From Gammaproteobacteria bacterium (GTDB taxonomy: Bacteria; Pseudomonadota; Gammaproteobacteria; Burkholderiales; Sulfuricellaceae), in NCBI GenBank assembly GCA_018823025.1, contig JAHJJI010000103.1, positions 1 to 33,040 on the forward strand: 33,040 bases of DNA, written 5' to 3'. Below the pieces are notes generated by a model. That model made no database searches and was not told where the DNA came from. It saw only the letters and a list, made by a program, of their open reading frames with translations. Position numbers and translations under genes: made by a program. The first letter of the stretch is position 1. Each line of letters starts with the position of its first letter. Shown in pieces: positions 3,385 through 20,767 of this stretch.

Positions 3385-3407
3385 AACTTGCATTTTTAAT
3401 ACATCTT
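3385..3407 (+). promoter_or_regulatory. Predicted NsrR operator before the DUF2249/NnrS-like/CopZ-like unit
   Basis: A 23-bp imperfect dyad reads AACTTGCATTT, T, TAATACATCTT. Against the published enterobacterial NsrR consensus (AAGATGYATTT, N, AAATRCATCTT), 9 of 11 positions match in the left half and 10 of 11 in the right. A good -10 (TAAAAT, 3410-3415) follows directly, so a repressor bound here would block the -35/-10 region. An Rrf2-type NsrR homologue is encoded at 18279-18698 in this window. Binding itself is inferred. Confidence 0.72.
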
Positions 3408-3459: not shown

Positions 3460-3720
3460 ATGTCTCACAATTGTGCCAACATCATCTCCCCAGACATGCT
3501 CTACCCATTCGACGCTCGCGGCGTTGCAAAACGCTTCCGCCACGCAGCCATCTTCGGTGCTCTGGATTCGCTGCATCCAGGCGAAACCATGCGCTTCGTC
3601 AACGACCACGACCCACTACCGCTGCTGGCTCAATTGATGGAGCGCTACGGTGACGCTATAGCAATTGTGTACGTCGCCCGCGAACCCGGCCAGATCGTGA
3701 TTGATTTCAGCCGCAAATAA
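3460..3720 (+). CDS. DUF2249 domain protein (first copy)
   Basis: An 86-residue soluble protein with the DUF2249 pattern: a PFDARG segment near residues 16-21, then LHPGETMRFVNDHDPLPL near 45-62, in an alpha/beta SirA/TusA-like fold. No enzymatic function is established for the family; genes for it often accompany hemerythrins and denitrification genes. AAGGAA (3447-3452) is a good ribosome-binding site seven bases before the ATG. It is the first gene behind the predicted NsrR operator and lies 12 bases before the NnrS-like gene at 3733, so it is probably derepressed by nitric oxide. A second DUF2249 gene is at 10048-10305. A role as small carrier or partner of the adjacent membrane protein is inference. 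Confidence 0.85.
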   Translation: MSHNCANIISPDMLYPFDARGVAKRFRHAAIFGALDSLHPGETMRFVNDHDPLPLLAQLMERYGDAIAIVYVAREPGQIVIDFSRK

Positions 3721-3732
3721 TAGGCAGCAGAC

Positions 3733-4854
3733 ATGCTGGTGACGCTAGCGATAACGGCGCTGGCAAGCTTTGCCGGCGCCGTTATCCTGGCCTGGTTCCA
3801 GCCTCTGCCTCCGGCCACCCACCTCCATCTCGCCCTGGCTGCGGGCGTCATGCCGCTGATCCTGGGTGCAATGAGTCATTTCGTTCCGGTGCTGACGCGA
3901 AGCGGATCGCCCGCTGCCGCCATTCACGCAATCCCCTTGCTGGCGCTGGCTGCTGGCGTACTGGCCGTTTTTTCCTTTATCGCCCCCAACCAGGCTTATT
4001 ATTTCGCCGCCCTGCTTGCGCTGGCCGCTGCGACCATGTTTGCCGGCTGGATAGCCAGTCGCGGTCGATCAGCCCTGGGCAAACCCCATCCCTGCCTGCA
4101 CTGGTACCTCGCCGCGATCGCCTGCCTGATACTGGCGCTGGCGGCGGTGGCGGCCATGGCAATCTGGCCGGAGCAACGGCTGGCACTGAAACGACTACAT
4201 CTTCATCTCAACACTCTGGGATTCATTGGGCTGACTGCCATTGCCACTCTGCAGGTACTATTACCCACGGCAGTCGGGCGGCCAGATCCGCAGGCTGCGA
4301 ACCGATTGCGTCAGGATTTAAAATGGGCGCTGGGCGGCACGCTGCTGATCTCCGTCGGGGCTGCCTGGCTCACACCGCTGGCATGGCTGGGCACGCTGTT
4401 GTGGGCGTTACCCGTATTGCGGCTGGGCCTGGCCTGGCTCACTCTGTATCACGCTGAAATTCAGCATATCCACGGTGCAGCGCCCTCGCTCGCCACAGCC
4501 CTGGCCGGATTTTCCGCCGCCCTGCTATTCGGTGTCCTGCACGCAACTGGCGTGCTCCTCCCCAGCAACAGCGCCCATGCCTTCATCCTCGCCTTCCTGT
4601 TCCCGCTGGTGACCGGCGCGATCAGTCAGTTGCTGCCGGTCTGGCTAAAACCCGGACCGCAAAACGTCTGGCACGAACAAATGCGGCAACGACTGCAGTG
4701 GGGCGGCGGAATACGTGGCCTGCTGTTTCTTGGCGGTGGCCTGCTCCTGGCCGGCGGCTGGCGCGGTGGAATGATACTGGCTGTGGCAGCGCTCGTGCTG
4801 TTCCTGCTGCAGCTGATCGGTGCAGCAGGAATCCTGCTTAAGCGATATGACTGA
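3733..4854 (+). CDS. NnrS-like polytopic membrane protein (first copy)
   Basis: A 373-residue, very hydrophobic protein with roughly eleven to twelve membrane helices. Histidine-bearing helix starts are visible: HLHLALAAGVMPLILGAM near residues 31-48 and LHLHLNTLGFIGLTAIATL near 156-174. The same pattern occurs in the minus-strand protein at 8735-10051, and both resemble the NnrS/heme-copper-like group linked to NO stress. The likely location is the cytoplasmic membrane; heme or metal binding by the histidines is inferred. It lies between a DUF2249 gene and a CopZ-like gene whose start overlaps its stop by 8 bases, so the three are translationally linked behind an NsrR-type operator. The molecular function is unknown. 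Confidence 0.78.
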   Translation: MLVTLAITALASFAGAVILAWFQPLPPATHLHLALAAGVMPLILGAMSHFVPVLTRSGSPAAAIHAIPLLALAAGVLAVFSFIAPNQAYYFAALLALAAATMFAGWIASRGRSALGKPHPCLHWYLAAIACLILALAAVAAMAIWPEQRLALKRLHLHLNTLGFIGLTAIATLQVLLPTAVGRPDPQAANRLRQDLKWALGGTLLISVGAAWLTPLAWLGTLLWALPVLRLGLAWLTLYHAEIQHIHGAAPSLATALAGFSAALLFGVLHATGVLLPSNSAHAFILAFLFPLVTGAISQLLPVWLKPGPQNVWHEQMRQRLQWGGGIRGLLFLGGGLLLAGGWRGGMILAVAALVLFLLQLIGAAGILLKRYD

Positions 4855-5284
4855 TTGTTGCTCTTCCCCAAAATGCGCAAAGCCTCATCCGAATAAGCAT
4901 CGGTGTCCGGTCAACGGCAAGAAATATGCCGAAGTCCCGGAGAAAACTGTTGTCCACCACATAAAGCAGGTGTGGGAACGGGAACCTAGGAGCTGCCGCT
5001 ACTTTTTTTGCGATGATCCTGCTTGCGATGTCGTCTATTTCGGAGACGATGATTCCGTTGTTCTGAAATCACAGCTCAGAATCCTGGTTGGCGCCAAGGA
5101 GGCGTCGAATGACGCACTAGTCTGTTATTGCTTCGGGGTAACAAAAGCGGATGCATTGCGCGACTCCAAGGCAAGGGATTATGTTGTCTCCCAGACAAAA
5201 CAGGGGCTTTGCTCATGCGAGACAAGCAATCCTTCCGGGCGTTGCTGCCTAAAAGATTTTCCACGCAGCAAGGGCTCTGAATAA
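4847..5284 (+). CDS. CopZ-like protein with zinc-binding and BFD-type [2Fe-2S] regions
   Basis: A 145-residue cysteine-rich protein. The N-terminal half has CPVNGKKY (Cys20), then Cys50, Cys55 and Cys60 in CRYFFCDDPAC, resembling the zinc-binding part of Archaeoglobus-type CopZ. The C-terminal half has CYCFGVTK (Cys93, Cys95) and later cysteines at 122, 124, 133 and 134, resembling the [2Fe-2S] BFD fold. The classical CopZ C-terminal CxxC copper domain is absent. The ATG at 4847 was chosen because it overlaps the upstream stop codon (ATGACTGA) and gives a natural N-terminus; an upstream GTG at 4820 is possible. It could move electrons or metal for the NnrS-like protein, but that is inference. 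Confidence 0.75.
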   Translation: MTDCCSSPKCAKPHPNKHRCPVNGKKYAEVPEKTVVHHIKQVWEREPRSCRYFFCDDPACDVVYFGDDDSVVLKSQLRILVGAKEASNDALVCYCFGVTKADALRDSKARDYVVSQTKQGLCSCETSNPSGRCCLKDFPRSKGSE

Positions 5285-5336
5285 CCTCAAAAGATCATCG
5301 AAAAATTCGCACTTTTGTTTCTGAACGTGACGTAAC

Positions 5337-5364
5337 TTTACTCTCACCCGTTCTGGGATATACT
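5337..5364 (+). promoter_or_regulatory. Candidate sigma-70 promoter of the CHASE/GGDEF gene
   Basis: TATACT (5359-5364) matches the -10 consensus in 5 of 6 positions, and TTTACT (5337-5342) is a weak -35 at 16 bases spacing. It lies in the 112-base interval between the CopZ-like stop and the cyclase start codon. No experimental or conservation support is available here. Confidence 0.3.
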
Positions 5365-5396
5365 GAATTCAACCGGGCCAATTGAGATTCATTATC

Positions 5397-7787
5397 ATGA
5401 ATTCGGCAGGACCCCCTACCTCATCGACCCTCCAGAGCACGGGAGACTTGCTCTCTCATCCCAGCGTGAAAGAGGCCGCCCTGGCACCTAAAGGCTTGCT
5501 GGTGGTCTCGCTGGTTCTTCTTTTCTCTCTGACATTGACCTTCTGGGGCTGGCACCAGGCCAAACAGAACGAAATCGCTAGCGCACAGAAGATTTTTGAA
5601 ATCCGTGCGGACGAAGTCAAAACTGCAATTGAAAAGCGCATGGAAACCTACATACAGGTGATGCGTGGCGGAGCTGGCCTGTTTGATGCATCCGTCTCAG
5701 TCGATCGGGAAGAATGGCGCGTCTACGTCCAGAAACTTAATCTGAACACCAACTACCCTGGCCTGCAGGCGTTGGGCTACCACCAACTCGTCAGCGAAAA
5801 AGACAAGGCTTCACACGAAAATGCCGTCCGTGCGGAGGGCTTCCCCGGCTATGCCATCCATCCTGCCGGGCAACGTCCCGAATACTCCCCCCTGGTATTC
5901 ACCGAGCCTTTTGCGGGGATGAATCTCAAGGCATTCGGATATGATGCCTATACTGAACCGAAGCGCCGCGCCGCCCTGGAAACTGCACGCGACACGGGGC
6001 AAGCAACTGTCAGCGCAAAAATCACGCTATTGCAGCAGGATGAAAAGCTGAAGCCACAACCCGGTTTTATCATGGTCTTTCCCATTTACCGGCATGGCCA
6101 GCCCACTGCGACCACAGAACAACGCCGCGCCGCCCTTACCGGCCACATTGTTGCAGCTTTCCGCATGGCCGACCTGATGGCAGGCATTCATGGCACAGGC
6201 CAACCCGCGATCGACATGCATATTTTTGACGGCACCGAACTCTCTCCGGAAAACCAGCTTTACGACAGCGACCAGGCAAACAGTTATAAAAGCAGTTTCA
6301 TTACCCGCAACAATACCATCATCGGAGGTCGCACCTGGACACTGCTTTTTTCCTCTTTGCCCGTCTTCGATAGCGCCCTGGATTATCAGCGGCCACATAC
6401 GCTACTCTTATTTGGCGTTATGGTCAGTCTGCTACTGGCCGCACTGACATGGGCACTGATTGCTGCCCGCACGATGGTGACAGCACGCGCCAATGCACTA
6501 GACAGAATGCAGCAAGCCATGCAGGCACTGAAGGAAAATGAAACCCTGCTGGACAACATTGTGGAAAACATCCCCATTTCAATCATCATCAAGGATCCCA
6601 AGGATGAATTCCGCATTACCCGCTGGAACAAGGCATCCGAATCCATTTTCAGCTTGCCTCGGGAGGAGGTTCTTGGGCGAAACGCCTATGACAACTGGCC
6701 GCGGGAACAGGCCGATTTTTACCAGACCTGTGACGAGCAAGCCATGCGGGAAGGGCAAATTGTGGACGTTCCCATCGAAGCCAGTACTTCCGGCATTGCC
6801 ACCATTTACCTCCACACCCAAAAACTGCCGTTGTTCGACGCCGAAGGCAACCCATCCCACCTGCTTGTGATCTGTGATGACATTACCGAACGCAAGCGCA
6901 CCGAAGACCAACTGCGTCTTGCTGCCCAGGTATTTGAAAACAGCGGCGAAGGTATCCTGGTAACCGACCAGGATAACCTCATTATTTCGGTCAACCGGGC
7001 CTTCACCACCATCACTGGATATTCGGAGCAGGAAGTCATCGGCGCCGATCCAAAAATTCTCAGTTCAGGGCAACAAAGCAAGGAATTCTATCAGCTGATG
7101 TGGGCAACGCTTCTCGAGTCTGGCAAGTGGAGCGGTGAAATATGGGACCGGCGCAAAGATGGAGAAATCTATCCCAAATGGCTTACGCTCAGCACCATCA
7201 AGAATCATGCGGGCCAGGTGGTCAATTACATCGGTTCTTTTTCCGATATCACCGAACGCAAGGCTGCTGAGGCACATATCCGCTTTCTGGCGGAGCACGA
7301 TGGACTTACCCGCCTGCCCAACCGCATGCTGTTTCAGGACCGGTTAAAGCAGGCCGTCGCACATGCCGGACGAAGGCAGGAGCGCCTGGCATTGATGTTC
7401 ATCGACCTTGATCACTTTAAGAATATCAACGACTCACTCGGCCACAATATTGGCGACCGGTTGTTGCAAGCCGTGGCAAAACGGCTCACCCAGAACGTGC
7501 GCGAGGGAGACACGGTGAGCCGACAGGGCGGAGATGAATTCATCATCCTGCTTCCAGATCTAGAAAATGCGGTTGATGCGGTCTTGGTGGCGGAGAAACT
7601 GCTCACAGCAGTACGGCAGCCCTACCAGTTCGATGGCCAGGAGGTCAATATCAGCTTCAGTATCGGCATCAGCCTTTACCCGGATGACAGCCGTGACATG
7701 AATGAGCTAAGAAGGCAGGCCGACGCGGCGATGTATCAGGCAAAGAAGGACGGGCGCAACACTTACCGTTTCTTCATTCGGAGATAA
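5397..7787 (+). CDS. Membrane diguanylate cyclase: CHASE-PAS-PAS-GGDEF
   Basis: A 796-residue sensor that should make cyclic di-GMP from two GTP. In order: a membrane helix near residues 33-52, a periplasmic CHASE-type sensory domain near 80-290, a second helix near 330-355, two PAS domains (about 380-500 and 510-620), and a GGDEF domain (about 630-790). The active-site motif GGDEF is intact at 711-715, and an inhibitory RxxD site (REGD) lies five residues before it. There is no EAL domain. The ATG at 5397 is preferred; an in-frame TTG at 5382 would add five residues. The stimulus is unknown. It ends 36 bases before the convergent dioxygenase gene. Confidence 0.9.
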   Translation: MNSAGPPTSSTLQSTGDLLSHPSVKEAALAPKGLLVVSLVLLFSLTLTFWGWHQAKQNEIASAQKIFEIRADEVKTAIEKRMETYIQVMRGGAGLFDASVSVDREEWRVYVQKLNLNTNYPGLQALGYHQLVSEKDKASHENAVRAEGFPGYAIHPAGQRPEYSPLVFTEPFAGMNLKAFGYDAYTEPKRRAALETARDTGQATVSAKITLLQQDEKLKPQPGFIMVFPIYRHGQPTATTEQRRAALTGHIVAAFRMADLMAGIHGTGQPAIDMHIFDGTELSPENQLYDSDQANSYKSSFITRNNTIIGGRTWTLLFSSLPVFDSALDYQRPHTLLLFGVMVSLLLAALTWALIAARTMVTARANALDRMQQAMQALKENETLLDNIVENIPISIIIKDPKDEFRITRWNKASESIFSLPREEVLGRNAYDNWPREQADFYQTCDEQAMREGQIVDVPIEASTSGIATIYLHTQKLPLFDAEGNPSHLLVICDDITERKRTEDQLRLAAQVFENSGEGILVTDQDNLIISVNRAFTTITGYSEQEVIGADPKILSSGQQSKEFYQLMWATLLESGKWSGEIWDRRKDGEIYPKWLTLSTIKNHAGQVVNYIGSFSDITERKAAEAHIRFLAEHDGLTRLPNRMLFQDRLKQAVAHAGRRQERLALMFIDLDHFKNINDSLGHNIGDRLLQAVAKRLTQNVREGDTVSRQGGDEFIILLPDLENAVDAVLVAEKLLTAVRQPYQFDGQEVNISFSIGISLYPDDSRDMNELRRQADAAMYQAKKDGRNTYRFFIRR

Positions 7788-7823
7788 TCGCTTAATCTTC
7801 GGGTTTCTTGCGGTTCGGTTTTC

Positions 7824-8726
7824 CTATAAACCGTACACTTCCCGCACTCCGGTACCGGCAATCCGGTCATAGTAGCGTGCGCGGTAGAGCAGGCGCTTCT
7901 TGTCCGGCGTGTCATTGAAACCGGCGCGGTCGTGCAACACATTGTTGCTGACCAGCCCCATCCCTGGTTCCAGGCGGCCACGGTAAATAAACGCCAAGTC
8001 GCTGGTGAGGAGCTTTTCCAGAAAGGCAACCGCCGCCAGGGTCAAATCGTCCTGCTTCCACACGATGCTGCGAGTGCGCGCGGTGTAACGCATGTGCAGG
8101 TCGCCGCTTTCCGGATGGATGGAAAACACCGGGCCAACCGCATCCGGCCTGGCCACGCCATCCTCCTCGACTCGCGCCGGGATGGTCATGGCATCGGATT
8201 GCATCAGGGCACGGATAAAACTGGGGTTCTCGTCGCGCATCAGCAAGTAGGCGATCTCGTGATCCAGCAAGGCATTTTCGCCCCCTTCCGCCGAACTCTG
8301 CACGCAATGCAGCTGCAGACCCCAGATCTGGTGCTCCGGCGTATTGTAGTAGCCATCGGTATGCCACTTTATTGGCTTGTTGGAATAGGGGATGAAATCG
8401 TGGCGCTGCCCGCCCTCCACCACCCTGAGCGAAGTCAGTCCATCGTCGTCGGCGAGCATGTTGCAATCCAGCCGCTCCAGTCCATACCGCTTGCCGAGCA
8501 AGCGTGGGATATTCTTGTCAGAATCGGTGCCGGTCTTGCTGGCATAGACCGCCATATTGGTTTTCTGGCAGATCTGCAGAATCGCCTGATATTCAGCCTG
8601 CGTCAGGCTGCGTGGATCATTGATTTCAACCAGGATCTGCTCCAGGCGGGTAGGGTAGCCTTCCAGCTTGCGGCTGCGCCATGCCTGAAAAGCGCTTTCG
8701 TTTTCAAGTACAAATGGACTCTGCAT
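7824..8726 (-). CDS. TauD/TfdA-type Fe(II)/2-oxoglutarate dioxygenase
   Basis: A 300-residue protein with the facial-triad pattern of TauD-like oxygenases: His122 and Asp124 in KWHTDGYY, a distal histidine (His265) in NNVLHDRAGF, and a following arginine (Arg278) suited to bind 2-oxoglutarate. Such enzymes use O2, Fe(II) and 2-oxoglutarate to oxidise a substrate; this substrate cannot be told from sequence. The ATG at 8726 was chosen because GAGAGG stands five bases before it; a TTG at 8738 would add four residues. It is the last gene of a minus-strand run (hemerythrin, DUF2249, NnrS-like, this gene), 8 bases after the NnrS-like stop. An oxygen-dependent enzyme in an NO-linked operon is unexpected. 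Confidence 0.85.
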   Translation of the reverse strand: MQSPFVLENESAFQAWRSRKLEGYPTRLEQILVEINDPRSLTQAEYQAILQICQKTNMAVYASKTGTDSDKNIPRLLGKRYGLERLDCNMLADDDGLTSLRVVEGGQRHDFIPYSNKPIKWHTDGYYNTPEHQIWGLQLHCVQSSAEGGENALLDHEIAYLLMRDENPSFIRALMQSDAMTIPARVEEDGVARPDAVGPVFSIHPESGDLHMRYTARTRSIVWKQDDLTLAAVAFLEKLLTSDLAFIYRGRLEPGMGLVSNNVLHDRAGFNDTPDKKRLLYRARYYDRIAGTGVREVYGL

Positions 8727-8734
8727 GATACCTC

Positions 8735-10051
8735 TCAAGTTGTTGACAGATCACCCTTAGGTGCTAGTTTGGCGTTCTGTTGGTAGATCCGGAAAGCGTT
8801 CAGCAGATTGATCTCCAGCAATACCATGGAAGCGCCGAACAGCAACGCCGCCGGATAAATCAGCGGCGGCCAGAGCACGGACAAAGCGAGCGCAGGTACA
8901 GCCGCGAAATGCAGCCACATCTGTCGGCGCATTCCCGGCTCCGGCATGATCAGTTTCATGTTCGGCACCCTCGCCACGCCCATCAGCAGGCTTTGCAGGT
9001 GAAACCAGATCAGGAACGGCACGATTTTATACAGCATCCCGTTGACCACCGACACTGCAAAACCGGCAATAAACAGGAACGCCAATACAAGATTATCACC
9101 TTGCATTTTATCCAATGCAGGAATGACCTGCCCGGCAACGCCCAATGCCAAAGCAAGCAGCAGACACGCCATGCCGAAGCGCCAGAACAGCAACGTCACA
9201 TCAGACTGCTTGCGGCGTCGCTGCAACTGGAGGCGCAAAGTAACAAGCGCAAAAACAGTGAAAATGGTTGCGGCGGTCAAACCCACTGCCAGCGTCACCT
9301 GCTCCTGCACCCCCTCAGGCAACCAGTAAACAACCGACCACAGCAGCAAAAGCACAAATAGCGCCGTCGTCAGCCAACGCGTCAGCAACTTGGGGTAGGA
9401 AGGAGTAAGCTGGAACATCGGCACTACCTGGTAGGAAACACCTGCCACCAGCAGCCCAATCCACCCCAGCAAGCCCCAGGTCAAATGAAGATTGGTCAGT
9501 CGCACCCGTTCGATCAGCCACCAATCCCAGCCGTAATTACTGGCCAATGTAAGACCGAGGGCAACAGTAACCACCAGCGAGCCGACCGCAAATCGCATCC
9601 CAACCACGGTCGGGTTGGCTGCAGATGCCCGCTTCAGGCTCAGCCCTACGGCAACGGCAAACACCGTAAATCCGCTGCCCAGCAGAACCATTGCGATGCG
9701 CATCGGCCAATGCACGCCGAAGAGAAAACCGCCTGCCAGCAGCAGCACGCCTGGCAGCAGCAAAACATGGACGGTACGCGCCACGCCCACCGGATGTGCA
9801 ACGGGTGAACCGGCCACTACCGGCAGCATCTGCATCATAGCTCCCACCATTGCCATGCCGAGAAAACCCAGCGTCATCAAGTGAGTCAACGCCAGCACTG
9901 ATGGCTGCCAGCGGCTGTCCATCAGGGAAGGCCCGTACCACAAAGCAAGCAGGGCGGCCAACAGACCAAACAGCGGCGCACTCAGAAAAAATCGGAATGG
10001 CACCCGGATCGGCGGCGCCTGACTGAAAGATAGGCCCGCTTCCAGCTTCAT
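8735..10051 (-). CDS. NnrS-like polytopic membrane protein (second copy)
   Basis: A 438-residue protein with about twelve membrane helices. It shares landmarks with the first copy (3733-4854): a histidine-started helix LTHLMTLGFLGMAMVGAMM ending in a proline/valine turn and an SP.AHP segment, and later LHLTWGLLGWIGLLVAGV followed by a proline break. These suggest conserved heme or metal ligands in a fold related to NnrS and heme-copper oxidases; no cofactor can be proven from sequence. Its ATG overlaps the stop of the DUF2249 gene upstream by four bases (ATGA), so the two are translationally coupled, exactly the pairing seen at 3460-4854. A role in NO tolerance or heme/metal handling is inferred from context. 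Confidence 0.78.
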   Translation of the reverse strand: MKLEAGLSFSQAPPIRVPFRFFLSAPLFGLLAALLALWYGPSLMDSRWQPSVLALTHLMTLGFLGMAMVGAMMQMLPVVAGSPVAHPVGVARTVHVLLLPGVLLLAGGFLFGVHWPMRIAMVLLGSGFTVFAVAVGLSLKRASAANPTVVGMRFAVGSLVVTVALGLTLASNYGWDWWLIERVRLTNLHLTWGLLGWIGLLVAGVSYQVVPMFQLTPSYPKLLTRWLTTALFVLLLLWSVVYWLPEGVQEQVTLAVGLTAATIFTVFALVTLRLQLQRRRKQSDVTLLFWRFGMACLLLALALGVAGQVIPALDKMQGDNLVLAFLFIAGFAVSVVNGMLYKIVPFLIWFHLQSLLMGVARVPNMKLIMPEPGMRRQMWLHFAAVPALALSVLWPPLIYPAALLFGASMVLLEINLLNAFRIYQQNAKLAPKGDLSTT

Positions 10052-10305
10052 TCCTGCAGGCCATAGGGCGCAGCAGCCGCATCCCCCTTGCGCCAGATCA
10101 GAATCTCATGATGATCTTCCGATTTGGCTTCGGCCAGATGGTTAAACCCTCGTTTCGACAGCAGCGGGTAGAGCAAGCAGGGTTCGCGATGATGGATCAT
10201 GCGCACACGTTCGCCCGGCTGCAACGTCGCAACAGCATCCAGCACCCTTTCCAGCGGCTCGGGCGGCTCCAGCCCGCGGACATCCAGCACGCGCTCCTGA
10301 CTCAT
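10048..10305 (-). CDS. DUF2249 domain protein (second copy)
   Basis: An 85-residue protein with LDVRGLEPPEPLERVLDAV near residues 7-25 and LQPGERVRMIHHREPCLLYPLL near 28-49, the DUF2249 pattern. It parallels the 86-residue protein at 3460-3720 (DARG versus DVRG, HPGETMRF versus QPGERVRM, HDP versus HRE) but is clearly divergent, so the duplication is old or the copies were acquired separately. It sits 14 bases after the hemerythrin stop and overlaps the NnrS-like start. The family has no assigned reaction; a carrier or partner role for the adjacent membrane protein is inference. Confidence 0.85.
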   Translation of the reverse strand: MSQERVLDVRGLEPPEPLERVLDAVATLQPGERVRMIHHREPCLLYPLLSKRGFNHLAEAKSEDHHEILIWRKGDAAAAPYGLQE

Positions 10306-10319
10306 CGCCGTTTTGCCCG

Positions 10320-10760
10320 CTACGCGCCCACAGCACGCATCTGTTGCAGCACCGCTTCCATTTCACCTGCCAGTGCCCGGTCGGCCATGAGATAGAGCAT
10401 CTGCTCTTCCTTCATGTTGTGCTGCTGCATCATCACCAGCAGCGTTTCAGCCTGACCCAGAAATTCGTCCCGGTCCTGTTGCTTCACCGCATCGGACATG
10501 GCATCGAATAATTCGCGCATCTGGACATGCTCCATCCGCATCACCTGGGTCGGCCCCATGCTCATGCCGGTATGCTCCTCGAAAGCGGGAAACAGCACCT
10601 CTTCCTCCATCTTGAAATGATGGTGCATGGAATCAAGAAAGCCCTGCAAACCGGTAGCGATCGTGCCCCAATCCTTGCCGGAAGCAGCGGCTTCCGCCTG
10701 CGAGAATAATTCATCGCAGCGATGGTGATCGCTGGTCATATAACTACTGATGGTGTCCAT
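10320..10760 (-). CDS. Hemerythrin-like di-iron protein
   Basis: A 146-residue four-helix protein with the histidine/carboxylate pattern of hemerythrin-HHE domains: DHHRCDELF at residues 11-19, HHHFKMEEEVLF near 46-57 (HxxxE), MRMEHVQMREL near 75-85, and QQHNMKEEQMLY near 112-123 (HxxxE). These would bind a non-heme di-iron centre that can react with O2 or NO. It is the first gene of the minus-strand run and is divergent from norC across a 390-base control region. AGGA stands before the ATG at a normal distance. It may bind or sense NO, or help repair iron centres as YtfE does; the N-terminal YtfE domain is absent, so it is not a RIC orthologue. Confidence 0.88.
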   Translation of the reverse strand: MDTISSYMTSDHHRCDELFSQAEAAASGKDWGTIATGLQGFLDSMHHHFKMEEEVLFPAFEEHTGMSMGPTQVMRMEHVQMRELFDAMSDAVKQQDRDEFLGQAETLLVMMQQHNMKEEQMLYLMADRALAGEMEAVLQQMRAVGA

Positions 10761-10942: not shown

Positions 10943-10956
10943 TTGACCTAAATCAA
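10943..10956 (+). promoter_or_regulatory. FNR/DNR-type binding site before norCB
   Basis: TTGACCTAAATCAA fits the FNR/Dnr consensus TTGAT-N4-ATCAA in 9 of 10 specified positions. A -10-like TAAATT lies at 10979-10984; a start point seven bases after it (about 10991) places the centre of the box at -41.5, the classical class II activator position. Activation of norCB by an FNR/NnrR-type regulator is therefore likely; no such regulator gene is in the window. Confidence 0.75.
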
Positions 10957-11150: not shown

Positions 11151-11585
11151 ATGAGCCAAGCATTTACCAAGTCAATGGCGCGAAACATTTTTTTCGGGGG
11201 ATCGGCATTTTTTTTCCTGCTCCTCGTCGCCCTGACTTTTGACACCATGCAGGTTCTGCCGAAGCGAGACCACCGGGAAAATATCACTCCCGCAGTGGAG
11301 CGCGGGAAAATGGTATGGGAAAAGAACAACTGCATCGGTTGTCACACACTACTTGGTGAGGGTGCCTACTACGCGCCAGAACTTGGTAATGTCTACGCAC
11401 GACGTGGCGGCGGTGAATTCATCAAGGCCTGGATCAAGAGCCGCCCCGCCGAAGGCACACCAGGCAACCGTCGCCAGATGCCACAATTCAACCTGACCGA
11501 TCAGGAACTGGATGACATGGTGGCATTCCTTAAGTGGACCGGTGAAATCAACACCGCCAAATGGCCGCCGAACATCGAAGGTTAA
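11151..11585 (+). CDS. norC: Nitric oxide reductase cytochrome c subunit
   Basis: The membrane-anchored cytochrome c subunit of cNor, which passes electrons from periplasmic donors to NorB. The 144-residue protein has one N-terminal membrane anchor (about residues 12-30), the heme c motif CIGCH at 61-65, and Met110 in RRQMPQF as probable axial ligand, all at normal spacing. GGAGGT (11141-11146) is a strong ribosome-binding site. It is followed 42 bases later by norB, which has its own AGGAGG (11615-11620). An FNR-type site and a structured leader lie upstream. Confidence 0.97.
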   Translation: MSQAFTKSMARNIFFGGSAFFFLLLVALTFDTMQVLPKRDHRENITPAVERGKMVWEKNNCIGCHTLLGEGAYYAPELGNVYARRGGGEFIKAWIKSRPAEGTPGNRRQMPQFNLTDQELDDMVAFLKWTGEINTAKWPPNIEG

Positions 11586-11600
11586 TTTTGGCCACCCTGA

Positions 11601-13004
<1,404 letters not shown>

Positions 13005-14143: not shown

Positions 14144-14187
14144 CTGCAACCAACACGCCCACCCTCTGTCAAAGTGAAAGTACCCTC

Positions 14188-14970
14188 ATGAGCAACGTGC
14201 CATTCTACAAACCGCACAGCAACGAAATCGAATTGTTCGAACACGCTTACAGTAACCAGTTGCCACTGCTGATAAAGGGGCCGACCGGCTGCGGCAAAAC
14301 CCGCTTCGTCGCGCATATGGCAGCCAAACTCAACCGGCCGCTGTACACCGTGGCCTGCCACGACGACCTGACTGCCGCCGACTTGGTCGGCCGCCATCTG
14401 ATCGGTGACGGCCGCACCTACTGGAGCGATGGCCCGTTGTCACGAGCAGTGCGTGAAGGCGGAATCTGTTATCTGGACGAGGTGGTGGAGGCGCGCAAGG
14501 ACACGACAGTCGTTCTGCATCCTCTCTCCGACGATAGGCGTATCCTGCCGATCGAGCGCACCGGAGAAATTTTGCAGGCGCCACCGGAGTTCATGCTGGT
14601 GGTGTCGTACAACCCCGGCTACCAGAACTTTCTGAAAGGGATGAAGCCGAGCACGCGCCAGCGCTTCGTTTCCCTGCGCTTCGACTTTCCAGAAAGCGCG
14701 CTGGAGCAGGAAATCCTGATCGGTGAAACCGGCGCCGACGCGATGCTGGCGAAGCGCCTGGTCAACCTCGCCAATGCCCTGCGCGCGCTCAAGGAGCACG
14801 ACCTGGAGGAGGCTGCCAGCACGCGCCTGCTGGTCTATGCCGCAACGCTGATCGGCAGTGGCTTCGACCCGGTGGATGCATGCCGTGCAGCGATGGTGGA
14901 AACCCTGACTGACGATGTAGAAACCGCCGATGCATTGATGGAGATTGTCCATGCCAGTTTTGGAAGATAA
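14188..14970 (+). CDS. norQ: NorQ, AAA+ ATPase for NO reductase maturation
   Basis: A 260-residue MoxR-type AAA+ ATPase of the CbbQ/NorQ family. The Walker A motif GPTGCGKT is at residues 31-38 and the Walker B ICYLDE at 93-98; conserved VVSYNPGYQNF follows at 138-148. Together with the NorD von Willebrand protein it inserts the non-heme FeB iron into NorB. The ATG at 14188 was chosen because MSNVPFYKPHSNEIELF is the usual start; the open frame continues upstream into norF sequence. Its end overlaps the next gene by 20 bases. Confidence 0.94.
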   Translation: MSNVPFYKPHSNEIELFEHAYSNQLPLLIKGPTGCGKTRFVAHMAAKLNRPLYTVACHDDLTAADLVGRHLIGDGRTYWSDGPLSRAVREGGICYLDEVVEARKDTTVVLHPLSDDRRILPIERTGEILQAPPEFMLVVSYNPGYQNFLKGMKPSTRQRFVSLRFDFPESALEQEILIGETGADAMLAKRLVNLANALRALKEHDLEEAASTRLLVYAATLIGSGFDPVDACRAAMVETLTDDVETADALMEIVHASFGR

Positions 14971-15349
14971 CGAACAGGAAACCCCCGGCCAGTCCCTGGC
15001 GGTCTGGGCGGAAACACTATACCTCGCCAATCTGCTATTGGCGCCGGGGCTGGCCTTTCTCATACTGCTCTGGCTGTATTTCAAGCGTAGCGCCAATATG
15101 CCGGCACTCGCCCTCTGCCACCTGCGCCAGGCTCTCAGCGCCAGCGTCTGGGCCGGTACCCTGCTGGTGATCGCCAACCTGCTCATCATCCTGCTCGGCG
15201 GCTATGCCGCGCCGAATACCTGGGTTATCGTTATCATCTATTTCACCACCTGCCATTCCACCCTGGTGCTGCTCGGCGTGCTCGGCCTGGCCAAGGCGAT
15301 GGCCGGGCAGAAGTATGTCTATCCGCTGGTAGGAAGGCCTTGTGACTAA
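14951..15349 (+). CDS. Small membrane protein inside the nor operon
   Basis: A 132-residue protein with about three membrane helices (near residues 15-42, 57-88 and 93-115). I do not recognise a named family; I recall similar genes beside NO reductase genes in betaproteobacteria. The ATG at 14951 lies inside the end of norQ and has GGAG eight bases before it; its stop overlaps the GTG of the ferredoxin gene by eight bases. This tight packing argues for a role in the same process, perhaps as membrane partner of the ferredoxin-like protein. The function is unknown. Confidence 0.75.
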   Translation: MPVLEDNEQETPGQSLAVWAETLYLANLLLAPGLAFLILLWLYFKRSANMPALALCHLRQALSASVWAGTLLVIANLLIILLGGYAAPNTWVIVIIYFTTCHSTLVLLGVLGLAKAMAGQKYVYPLVGRPCD

Positions 15350-16370
15350 TACTCAGCAAAAGCGATTATGGTTCCAGGCTGGCTTCTTCATCCTGTTCAT
15401 GCTGGCACCGGTATTCGACCTGTTCCGCTTCGACCTCAACGTTAAACACTTCTTCTTCCTCGGCTTCAATTGGACACTGGGGCTGGACGATCTCCTCACC
15501 CAGAAAATCAGTGCCGGCGAGGCCGCGCTCAACCTCATCCTGCGCGGCGGCCTGCCGATCCTCGGCGTGATCGGCACCGTCATCTGGATTTCATGGAAAT
15601 ACGGCCGCCTCTACTGCGGCTGGCTGTGCCCGCATTTTTCGGTGGTGGAAACCATTAACAGCGTACTGCGCCGCGCCATCGGCAAGCAGAGCATCTGGGA
15701 CAGACACCCCCTGCCGGAACGCAATGCCGACGGCAGCATCACCAGGGCCAACCCCCTTTACTGGCTGGTGGTGGTACCGCTGGCGCTGGCCTTCGCCTTT
15801 ACCTGGGCGGTGGCGCTGCTCACCTATATGCTGCCGCCGGCCGAGATTTACGGCAACCTGTGGCATGGCGAACTGACTGGCAACCAGGCACGCTTCATCG
15901 GCATCGGCACGCTGCTGTTTTTCATCGAGTTCATGTTTGCGCGCCACCTGTTCTGCCGCTTCGGCTGCGCCGTCGGCCTGTTCCAGTCGCTGGCCTGGAT
16001 GGGCAACCGCAAGGCGATGGTGATTGGTTTCGACCGCAAACGTGCCGAATCCTGTATCAACTGTAACGCCGCCTGCGATAACGTCTGCCCGATGCGCATC
16101 AAGCCCCGCTCGACCAAGCGCCACATGTTCACCTGCACCCAGTGCGGCCAGTGCGCCAACGCCTGCACCCAGGTCCAGGCCGGCAATCCCCGCGGCACCC
16201 TGTTGAAATGGGTGAACAAGGAATGTGCGCTGGACAAGTCAACGCGCGATTTCGGGCACCATGAAAACATTCCGGAGAATTGTTTTAGCGTCAATCCTCC
16301 AGGGCAACCAGAAAGAATCCTCCCTAACCACTTACCGCAAAGGACGCCAAGTATCGCAAAGGAAAGCTGA
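15342..16370 (+). CDS. NapH/CcoG-like membrane polyferredoxin inside the nor operon
   Basis: A 342-residue protein with about five membrane helices. It has two membrane-side cysteine pairs, CGWLCP (Cys92, Cys96) and CRFGC (Cys205, Cys209), as in NapH, NosR and CcoG. Two soluble [4Fe-4S] motifs follow: Cys238, 241, 245, 249-Pro, and Cys265, 268, 271, 275. The second motif lacks the usual proline after its last cysteine. CcoG reduces copper for cbb3 oxidase and NapH oxidises quinol; which activity applies here is unclear. Its place between norQ and norD suggests supply of electrons or reduced iron to the FeB insertion machine. Residues 331-342 are encoded by the left arm of a palindromic repeat, so the native C-terminus has been altered. 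Confidence 0.85.
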   Translation: MTNTQQKRLWFQAGFFILFMLAPVFDLFRFDLNVKHFFFLGFNWTLGLDDLLTQKISAGEAALNLILRGGLPILGVIGTVIWISWKYGRLYCGWLCPHFSVVETINSVLRRAIGKQSIWDRHPLPERNADGSITRANPLYWLVVVPLALAFAFTWAVALLTYMLPPAEIYGNLWHGELTGNQARFIGIGTLLFFIEFMFARHLFCRFGCAVGLFQSLAWMGNRKAMVIGFDRKRAESCINCNAACDNVCPMRIKPRSTKRHMFTCTQCGQCANACTQVQAGNPRGTLLKWVNKECALDKSTRDFGHHENIPENCFSVNPPGQPERILPNHLPQRTPSIAKES

Positions 16371-16410
16371 TCGGCAATCCTTTGCGTACACTTGCGTCCT
16401 TGGCGGTTAA
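16332..16410. repeat. Palindromic repeat, copy A (ferredoxin-like gene / norD)
   Basis: The left arm, beginning TTACCGCAAAGGACGCCAAG at 16332, is mirrored by the right arm ending CTTGCGTCCTTGGCGGTTAA at 16410, with few mismatches over about 32 bases. The same family occurs at 27191-27278. The left arm overlaps the 3' end of the ferredoxin-like coding sequence. I recall such ACCGCAAAGGACGCAAAGG palindromes as common dispersed repeats in betaproteobacterial genomes. Confidence 0.88.
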
Positions 16411-16422
16411 CAAGGCTCTGAA

Positions 16423-18264
16423 ATGGAAGAAACAGTCGGCGCCTTCTGGCACAAGCTTATCACCGGCGCGGCGGAGAAGCGCTATCCGCAGGAAGCGGTG
16501 ACACTCACAAGCATCAGCAAGACCGCCGGCATCTTCTTCCGCGCTCTCGGCGGCGATAGCGGTCTCAGCGTCAGCGCCACCAGCGCGACCGAACACGGTG
16601 CGCGCCGCAGTCTGAAGCAGCGCATTGCCGGCAGCGGCGCAAGAACCGAACTGACCTGGCTTGACGAAAACACCCTGCGCCTGCCCACAGTACTCGACAT
16701 CCTGCCACAGCGCAGCCTCAACCGTGATCTCTACCTGTGGCTGATTGCACTGGCGGCAGTGGATGAACCTGACACACCCGCCTGGGTGGTGCGCAACCAG
16801 CAGGCCACCTTGACGGTATTCGATCGCTTCCCCGGCATCCGCTCGCGCTACCAGCGCCTGCTCGATGCCACGCTGGCATTGCGCCCTGACCCGGCCAATC
16901 TGCCGGAAGACGAAGCGGCCATGGAGCAGGCCATTCGTGCCGCGCTGGCCAACCCGGGCAGTGTGGACAAACTACCGCGCGCCAGCCGGCCACCCCATCC
17001 GGTACACCTGTGGCTGCACCCCAACCCGCCGCGCACATTGCCGAATCAGGCCGGCGGCAACGCCCCACCATCCGGCGAGCCGCAGCAGGAAGGCGACGGC
17101 AAGAGCAAGAAAACCGATGACACCAAACGCCGCCAGGCCGAACGGGTGGACATGCCGGACAACAAGAACCCCTTCATCCTCTTCTTCCGCGCCGAAAGCA
17201 TTTTCAGCTGGGCCGAATACGTCAAGGCCAACCGTCCGACCGAAGACAACAACGACCCGGGTGCCGACCCGGCCGCCGATGATCTCAACCACCTGAGCGT
17301 GGCGCAGGACGGAAAAAGCGTTGCCTCGCGCCTCAGGTTCGACCTCGACCTGCCTTCCGCAGCACAGGACGACCTGCCTCTCGGGCAGGGCATTCTGCTA
17401 CCGGAGTGGCACTACAAAAAGCAGATTCTACAGCCCAACCACTGTTGCCTGCAGCCGATGGTCGCGCGCGCAGCGCCGCCCTGCGCCCTGCCACACCACC
17501 TCGCAGCCACCGCGCGCCGCATCCGCAGCCAGTTCGAAGCGCTGACCCCGGCGCGGGTGTGGATCAGGGGTCAGTTCGACGGCACCGAACCCGACTTGGA
17601 CGCCTGCGTCCAGTTCACCGCCGACCGCCTCTCCGGCCACGCCGCAGAACGCGGCCTGTACCGCGCCCACCACTACCGCGACCGCGATCTGGCCTGTCTG
17701 ATGCTGGCCGATCTGTCGCTCTCCACCGACGCATGGGTCAGCGATACCGCCCGTGTCATCGACGTCGTCCGCGACAGCCTGTACCTGTTCGCCGAGGCGC
17801 TGTCCGCCACCGGCGACCGTTTCAGCCTGTACGGCTTTTCCTCGCTGAAGCGCGAAAACGTGCGCTTTCACGTCATCAAGGAATTCGGCGAGAAATACAA
17901 TGCCAGCGTGCGCGGTCGCATCCAGGCCATCAAGCCCGGCTACTACACTCGCATGGGCGCCGCCATCCGTCACGCCAGCCAGCTTTTAGCAAAGCAGCAG
18001 GCCACGCAAAGGATTTTATTTATCCTCACCGACGGAAAACCCAACGACCTCGACCAGTACGAAGGACGCTACGGCATCGAAGACACCCGCGTCGCCCTGC
18101 TCGAAGCACGGCAGATGGGGCTGCGTCCATTCTGCGTCACGATCGACGAAAAGGCCGGCAGCTACCTGCCGCACTTGTTCGGCATCGGCGGATATGTTGT
18201 AATCAGGAAACCATCGGAACTACCGAAACAGCTGCCGCTGCTGTATGCGCAGCTGACCCGCTAA
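16423..18264 (+). CDS. norD: NorD, von Willebrand factor A protein for NO reductase activation
   Basis: A 613-residue soluble protein whose C-terminal third is a von Willebrand A domain with a metal-ion-dependent adhesion motif DLSLS (Asp430, Ser432, Ser434) and a later LTDGKPND. NorD/CbbO proteins act with the NorQ ATPase to insert FeB iron into NorB. The middle (about residues 205-245) is a charged, low-complexity linker, usual for the family. It is preceded by palindromic repeat copy A and followed 14 bases later by nsrR. Confidence 0.94.
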   Translation: MEETVGAFWHKLITGAAEKRYPQEAVTLTSISKTAGIFFRALGGDSGLSVSATSATEHGARRSLKQRIAGSGARTELTWLDENTLRLPTVLDILPQRSLNRDLYLWLIALAAVDEPDTPAWVVRNQQATLTVFDRFPGIRSRYQRLLDATLALRPDPANLPEDEAAMEQAIRAALANPGSVDKLPRASRPPHPVHLWLHPNPPRTLPNQAGGNAPPSGEPQQEGDGKSKKTDDTKRRQAERVDMPDNKNPFILFFRAESIFSWAEYVKANRPTEDNNDPGADPAADDLNHLSVAQDGKSVASRLRFDLDLPSAAQDDLPLGQGILLPEWHYKKQILQPNHCCLQPMVARAAPPCALPHHLAATARRIRSQFEALTPARVWIRGQFDGTEPDLDACVQFTADRLSGHAAERGLYRAHHYRDRDLACLMLADLSLSTDAWVSDTARVIDVVRDSLYLFAEALSATGDRFSLYGFSSLKRENVRFHVIKEFGEKYNASVRGRIQAIKPGYYTRMGAAIRHASQLLAKQQATQRILFILTDGKPNDLDQYEGRYGIEDTRVALLEARQMGLRPFCVTIDEKAGSYLPHLFGIGGYVVIRKPSELPKQLPLLYAQLTR

Positions 18265-18278
18265 CTAGCCGACCCTCC

Positions 18279-18698
18279 ATGCACCTGACCCGCTACACCG
18301 ACTATTCCCTGCGAACGCTGATTTATCTCGGCACGAGACCGGAAAAGCTCGCCACCATCAGCGAAATCGCCGCCTATCACGACATCTCGCGCAACCACTT
18401 GATGAAAGTGGTGCACCAGCTCGGCGCAAACGGCTATATCGACACCCTGCGAGGCAAAGGCGGCGGCATCAGACTGGCGCGCCCGCCGAATCAGATTGTG
18501 GTGGGCGACGTGGTGCGCAGCATGGAAGAGAACATGGACATCGTTGCCTGCTTCCAACCCGACTTCAACGCCTGCGTTCTGGCACCCGCCTGCCGCCTGA
18601 AAACCGCCATGAGCGAGGCCCTGCAAAGCTTTCTTGCGACGCTGGATCTGTATACCCTGGCCGATCTGATCGGCGAACAGGGCAGCCCCCTGGTTTGA
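18279..18698 (+). CDS. nsrR: NsrR, Rrf2-family nitric-oxide-sensing repressor
   Basis: A 139-residue Rrf2-family regulator with an N-terminal winged helix (MHLTRYTDYSLRTLIYL start, KGGGIRLA wing near residues 60-67) and three Fe-S ligand cysteines at 91, 99 and 105. NsrR carries an Fe-S cluster that reacts with NO, releasing its operators. IscR has similar cysteines, but the length, the CxxP...C....C pattern and the position at the end of a nor operon favour NsrR. A near-consensus NsrR site lies at 3385-3407. No NsrR dyad was found directly before norC or norE, so its control over its own operon is not evident. Confidence 0.9.
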   Translation: MHLTRYTDYSLRTLIYLGTRPEKLATISEIAAYHDISRNHLMKVVHQLGANGYIDTLRGKGGGIRLARPPNQIVVGDVVRSMEENMDIVACFQPDFNACVLAPACRLKTAMSEALQSFLATLDLYTLADLIGEQGSPLV

Positions 18699-19471: not shown

Positions 19472-20767
19472 GTGCCAAACAGTCAGCTCACTCTAAAGAA
19501 ACTCAAGACCCTTTTGGACCATCTCCATGACGGAGTATTTTCCATCGAAGAGGGAATGATGGTTTACGCCAACCAGGCTCTGTCGACGCTCATCGGTTAT
19601 CCCCTCGACGAAATCCTGCAACAGCCCTTTACCTGTTTTGTCTACAAAGAGGATCTGGAGAAAATCGTCAGCCATTATCAGGCTCGCTTACAAGGTGAAA
19701 ATGTACCCAATGAGTACGAGTTTCGCATGCTCTCCAAACAAGGCAATGCCATTGATGTGCGTATCAATGTCGGGGTCTCCGTAGCTCCGGATGGCTTACG
19801 CACCTCGATTGGGACAATTAAAGATCTCCGCGAAACAAAACGTACTACTCGTGATCTGGCCAGGTCCCGGCACGATATTGAATCTATTCTCGACAATATG
19901 CCGGATGTTTTCTATCGCACTGATTTGCAAGGCCTGATCACACTGATGTCGCCTTCTTGTAAAGAAGCGCTTGGGTATGAAGCGGAAGAGATGATAGGTC
20001 AACCTCTGGCCAGCTTTTATTGCACGCCTTCTGAGCGAGCAAAAATACTTAATGCATTAGAAGAAGGTAAAGGCAAAGCCCGGCATGTTGAAGCCTGTCT
20101 GACTCACAGGGATGGCTCCGCCGTTTGGATTTCAACCAATGCTTACCTGCGGCTAGATGAAAATGGACAGGCCATCGGCGTCGAAGGCATCGCACGCAAC
20201 ATTTCCGAGCGTAAAGAACTGGAAGATAAACTCACGGCCTTTGCTCGAATCGACGATCTGACACAAGTCTACAATCGGCGTTATTTCTATGAAGAAGCCG
20301 AAAAGCAGTTGATCCTTGCACACCGCTATCAACGGCCTGCGGCAATACTGATGCTGGATCTGGACCGCTTCAAACAAATTAACGATACCTATGGTCACCG
20401 TGCCGGTGATGAAGTGCTGAAAGATTTTGCTCAAATATGTCGCGATACAATCCGGGAGACCGATATCTTCGGTCGTACCGGCGGCGAGGAATTTGCTGTC
20501 CTGCTACCCGAAACAGAGCTGGATTCAGCTTTTCTGCTCGCACAAAGAATCTGTTCCCGGGTTAATTCAAGCACATTCAAGTTGAATCAATGCATCTTGT
20601 CTTATTCTGTCTCGATCGGTGTGGCTATTATAGATTCAGAGAAAATAAATATTGGAAAATTACTGTCTCATGCCGACAAGGCTCTTTATGAAGCCAAAGA
20701 AGCCGGGAGAAACTGCGTCCGGATATACGGTGCCGAGAAATCAGAATCGGCAACTCATATGCGCTGA
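19472..20767 (+). CDS. Cytosolic diguanylate cyclase: PAS-PAS-GGDEF
   Basis: A 431-residue protein with two PAS domains (about residues 8-120 and 130-250) and a GGDEF domain (about 255-420). The active-site motif is GGEEF at 337-341, a functional variant, with an inhibitory RxxD site (RETD) five residues earlier. There is no membrane helix, so it senses an internal signal. The start is a GTG at 19472 with AAGGAAG (19458-19464) before it. It converges with nnrS, 18 bases from its end. It may tie c-di-GMP output to redox or NO state through PAS cofactors, but none is evident from sequence. Confidence 0.9.
   Translation: MPNSQLTLKKLKTLLDHLHDGVFSIEEGMMVYANQALSTLIGYPLDEILQQPFTCFVYKEDLEKIVSHYQARLQGENVPNEYEFRMLSKQGNAIDVRINVGVSVAPDGLRTSIGTIKDLRETKRTTRDLARSRHDIESILDNMPDVFYRTDLQGLITLMSPSCKEALGYEAEEMIGQPLASFYCTPSERAKILNALEEGKGKARHVEACLTHRDGSAVWISTNAYLRLDENGQAIGVEGIARNISERKELEDKLTAFARIDDLTQVYNRRYFYEEAEKQLILAHRYQRPAAILMLDLDRFKQINDTYGHRAGDEVLKDFAQICRDTIRETDIFGRTGGEEFAVLLPETELDSAFLLAQRICSRVNSSTFKLNQCILSYSVSIGVAIIDSEKINIGKLLSHADKALYEAKEAGRNCVRIYGAEKSESATHMR

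Follow-up and report, generated by a model that had tools for sequence, protein, structure and literature searches.

Relatives in described systems

DUF2249, which we take to be the family also catalogued as COG4309, is the shared component of two gene cassettes in a 33,040-nucleotide stretch of a Gammaproteobacteria bacterium genome (Burkholderiales, Sulfuricellaceae; GenBank assembly GCA_018823025.1, contig JAHJJI010000103.1, positions 1 to 33,040 of the forward strand; hereinafter the window). In each cassette it directly precedes a gene for a polytopic membrane protein, termed here MP_A and MP_B. Pei et al. in 2014 reportedly described haem-copper oxidase (HCO) homology proteins, namely homologues of oxidases with 12 helices that occur in denitrification contexts; many of them have two conserved histidines, and they were proposed to hold one haem. 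We liken MP_A and MP_B to these proteins by that general description.

Passages in two papers call the function of DUF2249 unknown (PMC11218638, PMC6282519), and the first-pass annotation of the window, which knew of no described function for the pair, was right as far as mechanism goes; however, several links are in print. A section of Rodionov 2005 places COG4309 with nor genes in the NnrR and NsrR regulons (PMC1274295), while the relevant part of a 2024 Haloferax study reports that four DUF2249 genes are induced and refers to Pei 2014 and Alvarez-Carreno 2018 on the connection of the domain with haem-copper oxidases and hemerythrins (PMC11218638). The cassettes share a denitrification link with these COG4309 genes and with the Thermus DUF2249 protein DrpA, but the operon partner of the latter, DrpB, carries a DUF1858 and two DUF2249 domains according to a passage of PMC6282519, rather than an oxidase-like fold. 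Thus, DUF2249 has known ties to the haem-copper superfamily, to hemerythrin and to nitric oxide (NO) regulons, and MP_A and MP_B add to that superfamily. In a full-text literature search for DUF2249/COG4309, which did not cover the cited Pei 2014 and Alvarez-Carreno 2018, none of the titles and abstracts dealt with the subtype-locked triad described below.

Our analysis of sequences and predicted structures suggests that the two cassettes do work as units in the NO response, the second together with a third partner that probably binds iron. Both lie where the first-pass annotation had placed them, with DUF2249-A and MP_A at 3460-4854 on the plus strand and hemerythrin, DUF2249-B and MP_B at 10760-8735 on the minus strand, and the CopZ-like, hemerythrin and dioxygenase neighbours it named are likewise present (Table 1). 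DUF2249-A and MP_A are spaced by 12 nucleotides, the start of the MP_B gene overlaps the end of that for DUF2249-B by four, and the hemerythrin gene is probably the first of the MP_B operon.

The membrane proteins as haem-copper oxidase homologues

The two membrane proteins had been labelled NnrS-like and credited with matching histidine helices. A profile-profile comparison of 13 MP_A with 60 MP_B relatives, the latter 22-92% identical to the protein of the window, recovers them as homologous (P 96.9%, E 1.4e-10, 267 columns) and bears out the matched helices, with H32 of MP_A aligned on H57 of MP_B and H156 on H189. The label itself is loose. On the one hand, both proteins fall short of every cut-off in a Pfam scan, and neither matches the NnrS model PF05940 up to E 1, on which ground we rejected their being NnrS proper; the window also codes for a separate true NnrS. 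On the other hand, MP_B shares with NnrS the superfamily, the NO-related context and a profile similarity (P 86%, E 5.1e-6 against 16 NnrS sequences), and in a Pfam scan at E 1 or better five of its 60 relatives match NnrS (best E 5.6e-7) and three match COX1. Among the 23 MP_A loci, two show an NnrS match below the cut-off.

When the MP_B profile is run against PDB sequences (up to E 1), its sole matches are three cbb3 oxidase chains (E 4.2e-5 to 2.7e-4), with residues 18-110 aligned on the C-terminal part of CcoN and H57 on the second histidine of its HVH motif. Additionally, a search of nine genomes with the COX1 model placed four weak MP_B-profile matches inside COX1 proteins. Sequence homology to the haem-copper oxidase superfamily is thus direct for MP_B and runs via MP_B for MP_A.

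Structure prediction extends this similarity to nearly the whole of each membrane protein. The AlphaFold2 model of MP_A (predicted local distance difference test, pLDDT, 91.6) has 12 long helices, and its best-matching chains are cbb3 CcoN (9g6b_A: Z 31.7, root-mean-square deviation 3.1, 361 of 373 residues), the cytochrome c NO reductase (cNOR) chain 4xyd_A (Z 29.0) ranking under further cbb3 chains. For MP_B we used a related protein of 530 residues (L179/L198), the one natural in-frame DUF2249-MP_B fusion that we found; its model (pLDDT 92.4) shows a beta-alpha-beta-alpha-beta-beta domain followed by 12 long helices, and matches cbb3 with Z 34.2 over 401 residues and cNOR with Z 32.8. The predicted MP_A and the MP_B-related fusion both display the superfamily hallmark of 12 transmembrane helices in three four-helix units. 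Hence, as judged from profiles and models, MP_A and MP_B are homologues and share a predicted 3x4 arrangement of 12 helices, the fold of subunit I in haem-copper oxidases and NO reductases, such as cbb3 CcoN and the cNOR subunit NorB.

They differ from these subunits in being shorter and in their histidines. Oxidases and NO reductases carry a six-histidine haem/metal set distributed over helices 2, 6, 7 and 10. H57 and H189 are the sole invariant histidines in the 60 MP_B sequences, and H32, H49, H119 and H156 are invariant in the 13 MP_A sequences; going by where the helices begin and end in the models, helix 2 contains H57/H32 and helix 6 contains H189/H156, and neither set has an invariant histidine in helix 7 or helix 10. 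The six-histidine set is thus absent from both proteins. Because, among the oxidase-type histidines, only those of helices 2 and 6 are invariant, MP_A and MP_B are probably not ordinary terminal reductases.

Pairing of DUF2249 subtypes with distinct membrane proteins

We surveyed DUF2249 in even draws of 143 class-level genomes, nearly every one from a different family, and 200 order-level genomes (the 200-genome draws used throughout comprise the same genomes as far as listed). Neighbours were counted as hidden Markov model matches on six-frame translations, since those given by a greedy gene caller were unreliable in GC-rich genomes. The domain was found in 24 of the class-level and 68 of the order-level genomes, with 31 and 116 matches, respectively. 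These 147 are domain matches rather than genes (three loci have tandem DUF2249 domains); the window's own two are left out and matches near contig ends are kept. A strict motif rule with a length filter sorts them into 57 A-type domains (RHxxIF), 78 B-type domains, seven fused to hemerythrin and five others, four of which are a PCEP variant of B.

MP_B lies directly downstream of DUF2249 in 61 of the 147 matches, a separate hemerythrin directly upstream in 58, and both together in 55 (14/31 class-level, 41/116 order-level). These associations follow the subtype. Of the 83 B-type and other domains, 60 have MP_B downstream and six, all in the three tandem loci, have it upstream, and none is adjacent to any other membrane family. 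No A-type domain directly precedes MP_B; instead, the downstream neighbour of this type is MP_A in nine cases, an NnrS-related family in seven, NnrS in four and NorB in two, with MP_A or NorB upstream in four more. The seven hemerythrin-fused domains have none of the membrane families adjacent. Thus, across the surveyed sequences, the DUF2249 subtype goes with the partner, A with MP_A, the NnrS-related family, NnrS or NorB, and B with MP_B.

A reverse test in 200 genomes started from the membrane proteins, with the window counted. DUF2249 is directly upstream of 47 of the 57 strong MP_B loci (E below 1e-70, a threshold that we set) and directly downstream of two; for the 23 MP_A loci, the corresponding counts are 10 and two. 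We gave no weight to a rate of 72/80 for DUF2249 plus hemerythrin beside MP_B, since the query itself included a fused DUF2249.

Accordingly, the proposal that DUF2249 and the membrane protein form a functional unit stands, given the homology of the two membrane proteins, their frequent direct adjacency to DUF2249 in other genomes and the natural fusion; neither outcome that the first-pass annotation named as refuting it came about. Two qualifications apply. The pairing is specific to subtype rather than free, and the third partners, which the first-pass annotation regarded as exchangeable, are not equivalent: hemerythrin is near-constant with the B unit (55 of the 61 MP_B-adjacent domains), whereas dioxygenase relatives occur in six survey genomes, the window's included, and the CopZ-like gene was found only in the window, not at the other surveyed loci or at 80 named loci. 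CopZ was therefore rejected as a regular partner.

The third membrane family beside A-type DUF2249 (L124, L094, L116, L096, L176, L163) comprises proteins of about 370 residues with several invariant histidines; it is related to NnrS (E 2.7e-8), with no Pfam match in the two members scanned. In the three tandem loci (L061, L093, L169), a double DUF2249 lies directly downstream of MP_B and is followed by an A-type DUF2249 with NorB (L061, L093) or NnrS (L169). The 3.35-Mb genome of the window (145 contigs) yields no DUF2249 match beyond the window's two.

DUF2249 and hemerythrin as proposed soluble partners

DUF2249-B scores over the cut-off of the TusA family PF01206 (36.3 versus 28.6 bits), and the DUF2249 part of the natural fusion matches SirA/TusA structures (SirA-like 3hz7, TMt 0.78, but E 0.07). 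The position of the TusA catalytic cysteine is occupied by the first proline of a PP pair in 67 of the 78 B-type domains (PPEP in the window), and CPxP, with the cysteine, occurs in three, none of which is beside MP_B. The 52 B-type domains beside MP_B conserve a core of D, L, PPEP and a few P, L, G and I positions, with no cysteine or histidine conserved at 90%. A role for DUF2249-B as a sulfurtransferase was rejected, the catalytic cysteine being absent. DUF2249-B thus resembles TusA in fold but has no cysteine for sulfur transfer, and an adaptor suits it better than a carrier.

This bears on the idea of the first-pass annotation that DUF2249 is a small carrier serving the membrane protein, which we read as the delivery of a metal, of haem or of sulfur. 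The TusA-like fold would suit such a role, as would the CopZ-like metallochaperone after MP_A in the window, and the A-type alone has two invariant histidines: R, H and F of its first motif and N, D, H and P of its second are invariant in 56 domains, and these RH and NDHDP motifs could bind metal. The B-type composition just described and the finding of CopZ in the window alone argue against it, and we consider a carrier unlikely.

The hemerythrin of the window has a hemerythrin domain alone in a Pfam scan. H12, C15, H48, E52, H78, H114 and E118 are identical in all 56 aligned hemerythrins from hemerythrin-DUF2249-MP_B triads, the window's included, and this set without C15 we presume to be the di-iron ligands. 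The triad hemerythrin, with its predicted di-iron site intact, is thus probably iron-binding. It shares the His/Glu pattern with the RIC/YtfE hemerythrins but is a single-domain protein of 146 residues that scores far under the cut-off of that family (31.5 versus 254 bits; partial NCBIfam match, E 1.2e-7). C15 (window 10716-10718), equally identical in 56/56, lies three residues past a likely iron ligand.

Regulation and co-occurrence with NO reductase

The NsrR-like palindrome upstream of DUF2249-A is the best such site in the window, the next best having eight mismatches and the lowest in 60 order-1 random windows six. A comparable site recurs upstream of DUF2249-A in the same-genus genome G156 (five mismatches), in G170 (six) and in G203 and G286 (seven each); some other A-type upstream regions have FNR/DNR-like boxes with 0-1 mismatch. 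On the B side, one such box lies in the divergent hemerythrin/norC promoter region (Table 1). FNR/DNR-like sites with up to two mismatches number 20 in the whole window versus 10 expected, and boxes with 0-1 mismatch are found upstream of hemerythrin in 21 of 56 triads (window counted) versus 2 of 56 random stretches, one of 320 bases per locus.

Among the 200 genomes, and uncorrected for kinship, NO reductase (NOR) is present in 42/57 genomes with MP_B versus 24/143 without, NnrS in 53/57 versus 50/143, and MP_B in 22/23 genomes with MP_A versus 35/177 without. MP_A and MP_B lie within 10 kb on one contig in nine of the 22 genomes having both. The NsrR- and FNR/DNR-like sites together with the co-occurrence with NO reductase point to a role of the cassettes in NO handling.

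A proposed NO and iron protection unit

We propose that in both MP_A and MP_B a single b-type haem would sit between helix 2 and helix 6, held by two histidines, and that the usual oxidase/NOR catalytic site would be missing. DUF2249 would be an adaptor docked on the membrane protein; we take it to be cytoplasmic because in the fusion it lies on the side of the N terminus, which in oxidases faces the cytoplasm. Hemerythrin would be a cytoplasmic di-iron partner. Such a unit, induced by NO or anoxia, may bind or relay NO, or electrons for NO, alongside NorCB, and might protect cellular iron as reported for NnrS. The closest functional model is indeed NnrS, which, according to a passage of PMC9246220, does not remove NO directly but protects the iron pool against the formation of dinitrosyl iron complexes. 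We hold this explanation as a whole, comprising one-haem HCO-like membrane proteins, a DUF2249 adaptor and a hemerythrin partner in NO/iron protection, with about as much belief as doubt.

Several observations weigh against it. None of the surveyed membrane families is adjacent to 31 of the 57 A-type domains, and no DUF2249 is directly upstream of 10 of the 57 MP_B and 13 of the 23 MP_A loci (two of each have it downstream). The MP_A profile does not match NnrS (P 1.9%) and has one irrelevant match among PDB sequences (E 0.91). A further ligand is possible because of two other histidines: H282, in helix 10 of the window's MP_A, occurs in 7/13 MP_A sequences (the window counted), and 50/60 MP_B sequences have H351, which lies close to where helix 10 ends. 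An NsrR-like site with up to seven mismatches is found in only 8 of the 57 A-type upstream regions, a count without background control, kinship may bear on the co-occurrence figures, and NOR was not found in 15 of the 57 MP_B genomes with the window's NorB as query at E 1e-20. Finally, Thermus DrpA is reported as periplasmic in a passage of PMC6282519.

Beyond a carrier, the cassettes could help to mature NO reductase or to insert its cofactors. A cassette adjoins norCB in the window, a NorB homologue is directly beside DUF2249 in four survey matches, and a passage of Rodionov 2005 (PMC1274295) proposes a relevance of COG4309 to NO reductase; however, the MP_B genomes in which no NOR was found speak against such a role, as does the presence in the cluster of NorQ- and NorD-like genes, the pair described for FeB insertion in the part concerned of PMC9976466. 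We regard an assembly factor as quite unlikely. We give the same low credence to a sensor, in which the membrane protein and DUF2249 would report nitrate or NO to regulators, a role proposed for DrpA/DrpB. Expression of nar and dnr changes when drpA, drpB or the two together are deleted, as stated in a passage of PMC6282519, and a CHASE-PAS-GGDEF protein lies between the cassettes of the window; yet the common partner of the B unit is hemerythrin (no search was made for a constant regulator neighbour), and DrpB, a membrane-binding protein in that account, is unlike MP_A or MP_B.

More speculatively, hemerythrin, DUF2249-B and MP_B might constitute an undescribed membrane-bound NO reductase, in which quinol electrons would pass via the single MP_B haem and the DUF2249 adaptor to the di-iron hemerythrin, reducing NO to N2O on the cytoplasmic side and complementing NorCB; this we deem improbable. 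That the pairings are those of ordinary neighbours, brought together by chance or lineage inheritance with no joint function, is scarcely credible: synteny is common to relatives and many A-type domains have no such membrane neighbour, but hemerythrin upstream and MP_B downstream co-occur in nearly half of the class-wide matches, drawn from nearly all different families, and DUF2249 and MP_B are fused in nature.

Other features of the locus and genome

Table 1. Features of the window and the evidence for each
Feature	Position	Strand	Evidence
NsrR-like palindrome upstream of DUF2249-A	3385-3407		5 mismatches to the NsrR consensus used
DUF2249-A, A-type, 86 residues, motifs RHAAIF and NDHDP	3460-3720	+	PF10006 E 6.3e-27, 93.7 bits versus gathering score 29.5
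MP_A, 373 residues, predicted 12-helix haem-copper-oxidase-superfamily homologue	3733-4854	+	AlphaFold2 model, fold match to cbb3 subunit 9g6b_A
CopZ-like Fe-S metallochaperone, after MP_A	4847-5284	+	NF047645 E 1.5e-48; PF18423 E 8.4e-14; start at 4847 predicted, longest open reading frame begins at 4820
TauD/TfdA-family Fe(II)/2-oxoglutarate dioxygenase-like protein, after MP_B	7824-8738	-	PF02668 E 9.9e-20
MP_B, 438 residues, predicted 12-helix haem-copper-oxidase-superfamily homologue	8735-10051	-	Family profile versus PDB; fold of related natural fusion
DUF2249-B, B-type, 85 residues, PPEP motif, TusA-like	10048-10305	-	PF10006 E 1.7e-17, 63.5 bits versus gathering score 29.5
Single-domain hemerythrin, 146 residues	10320-10760	-	PF01814 E 2.3e-22
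FNR/DNR-like box TTGACCTAAATCAA, divergent hemerythrin/norC promoter region	10943-10956		One mismatch
norC and norB (cytochrome c NO reductase)	11151-13004	+	PF00034, PF00115
norQ-like AAA protein (14182-14970, predicted start), small membrane protein, Fer4_5 membrane protein, norD-like VWA protein	14182-18264	+	PF07728/PF08406, PF12801, PF00092
Rrf2-family regulator, NsrR candidate	18279-18698	+	PF02082 E 1.1e-35; start codon at 18279
True NnrS	20786-22012	-	PF05940 E 1.3e-73

The nor region also holds a COX3-like gene, listed after norB and before the norQ- and norD-like genes, and two GGDEF-type signalling proteins, that between the cassettes at 5382-7787 and another at 19472-20767, named from sequence by eye. 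Next to nnrS, at 22200-24662, a single protein combines a protein kinase domain with an HDOD domain.

Elsewhere in the same genome, two neighbouring genes code for short oxidase-like proteins (L278:2221-3296; G000:C16:5220-6295), one of 136 residues (COX1 E 5.1e-7) and the other a protein in which a thioredoxin-like domain precedes a stretch weakly matching NnrS. The pair lies near a gene for a CRP/FNR-type regulator on the opposite strand, and similar pairs are found in G176 and, by coordinates, in G203. Possibly these are oxidase homologues of one unit each, several of which come together in an oligomer.

Implications

With these results, DUF2249 gains a concrete and testable role as the subtype-matched soluble partner of membrane proteins of the oxidase superfamily, for which the hemerythrin-DUF2249-MP_B operon and the one natural fusion offer workable material. 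Should a di-iron protein indeed receive electrons or NO from MP_B, denitrifiers would handle NO at one more level in addition to NOR and NnrS.

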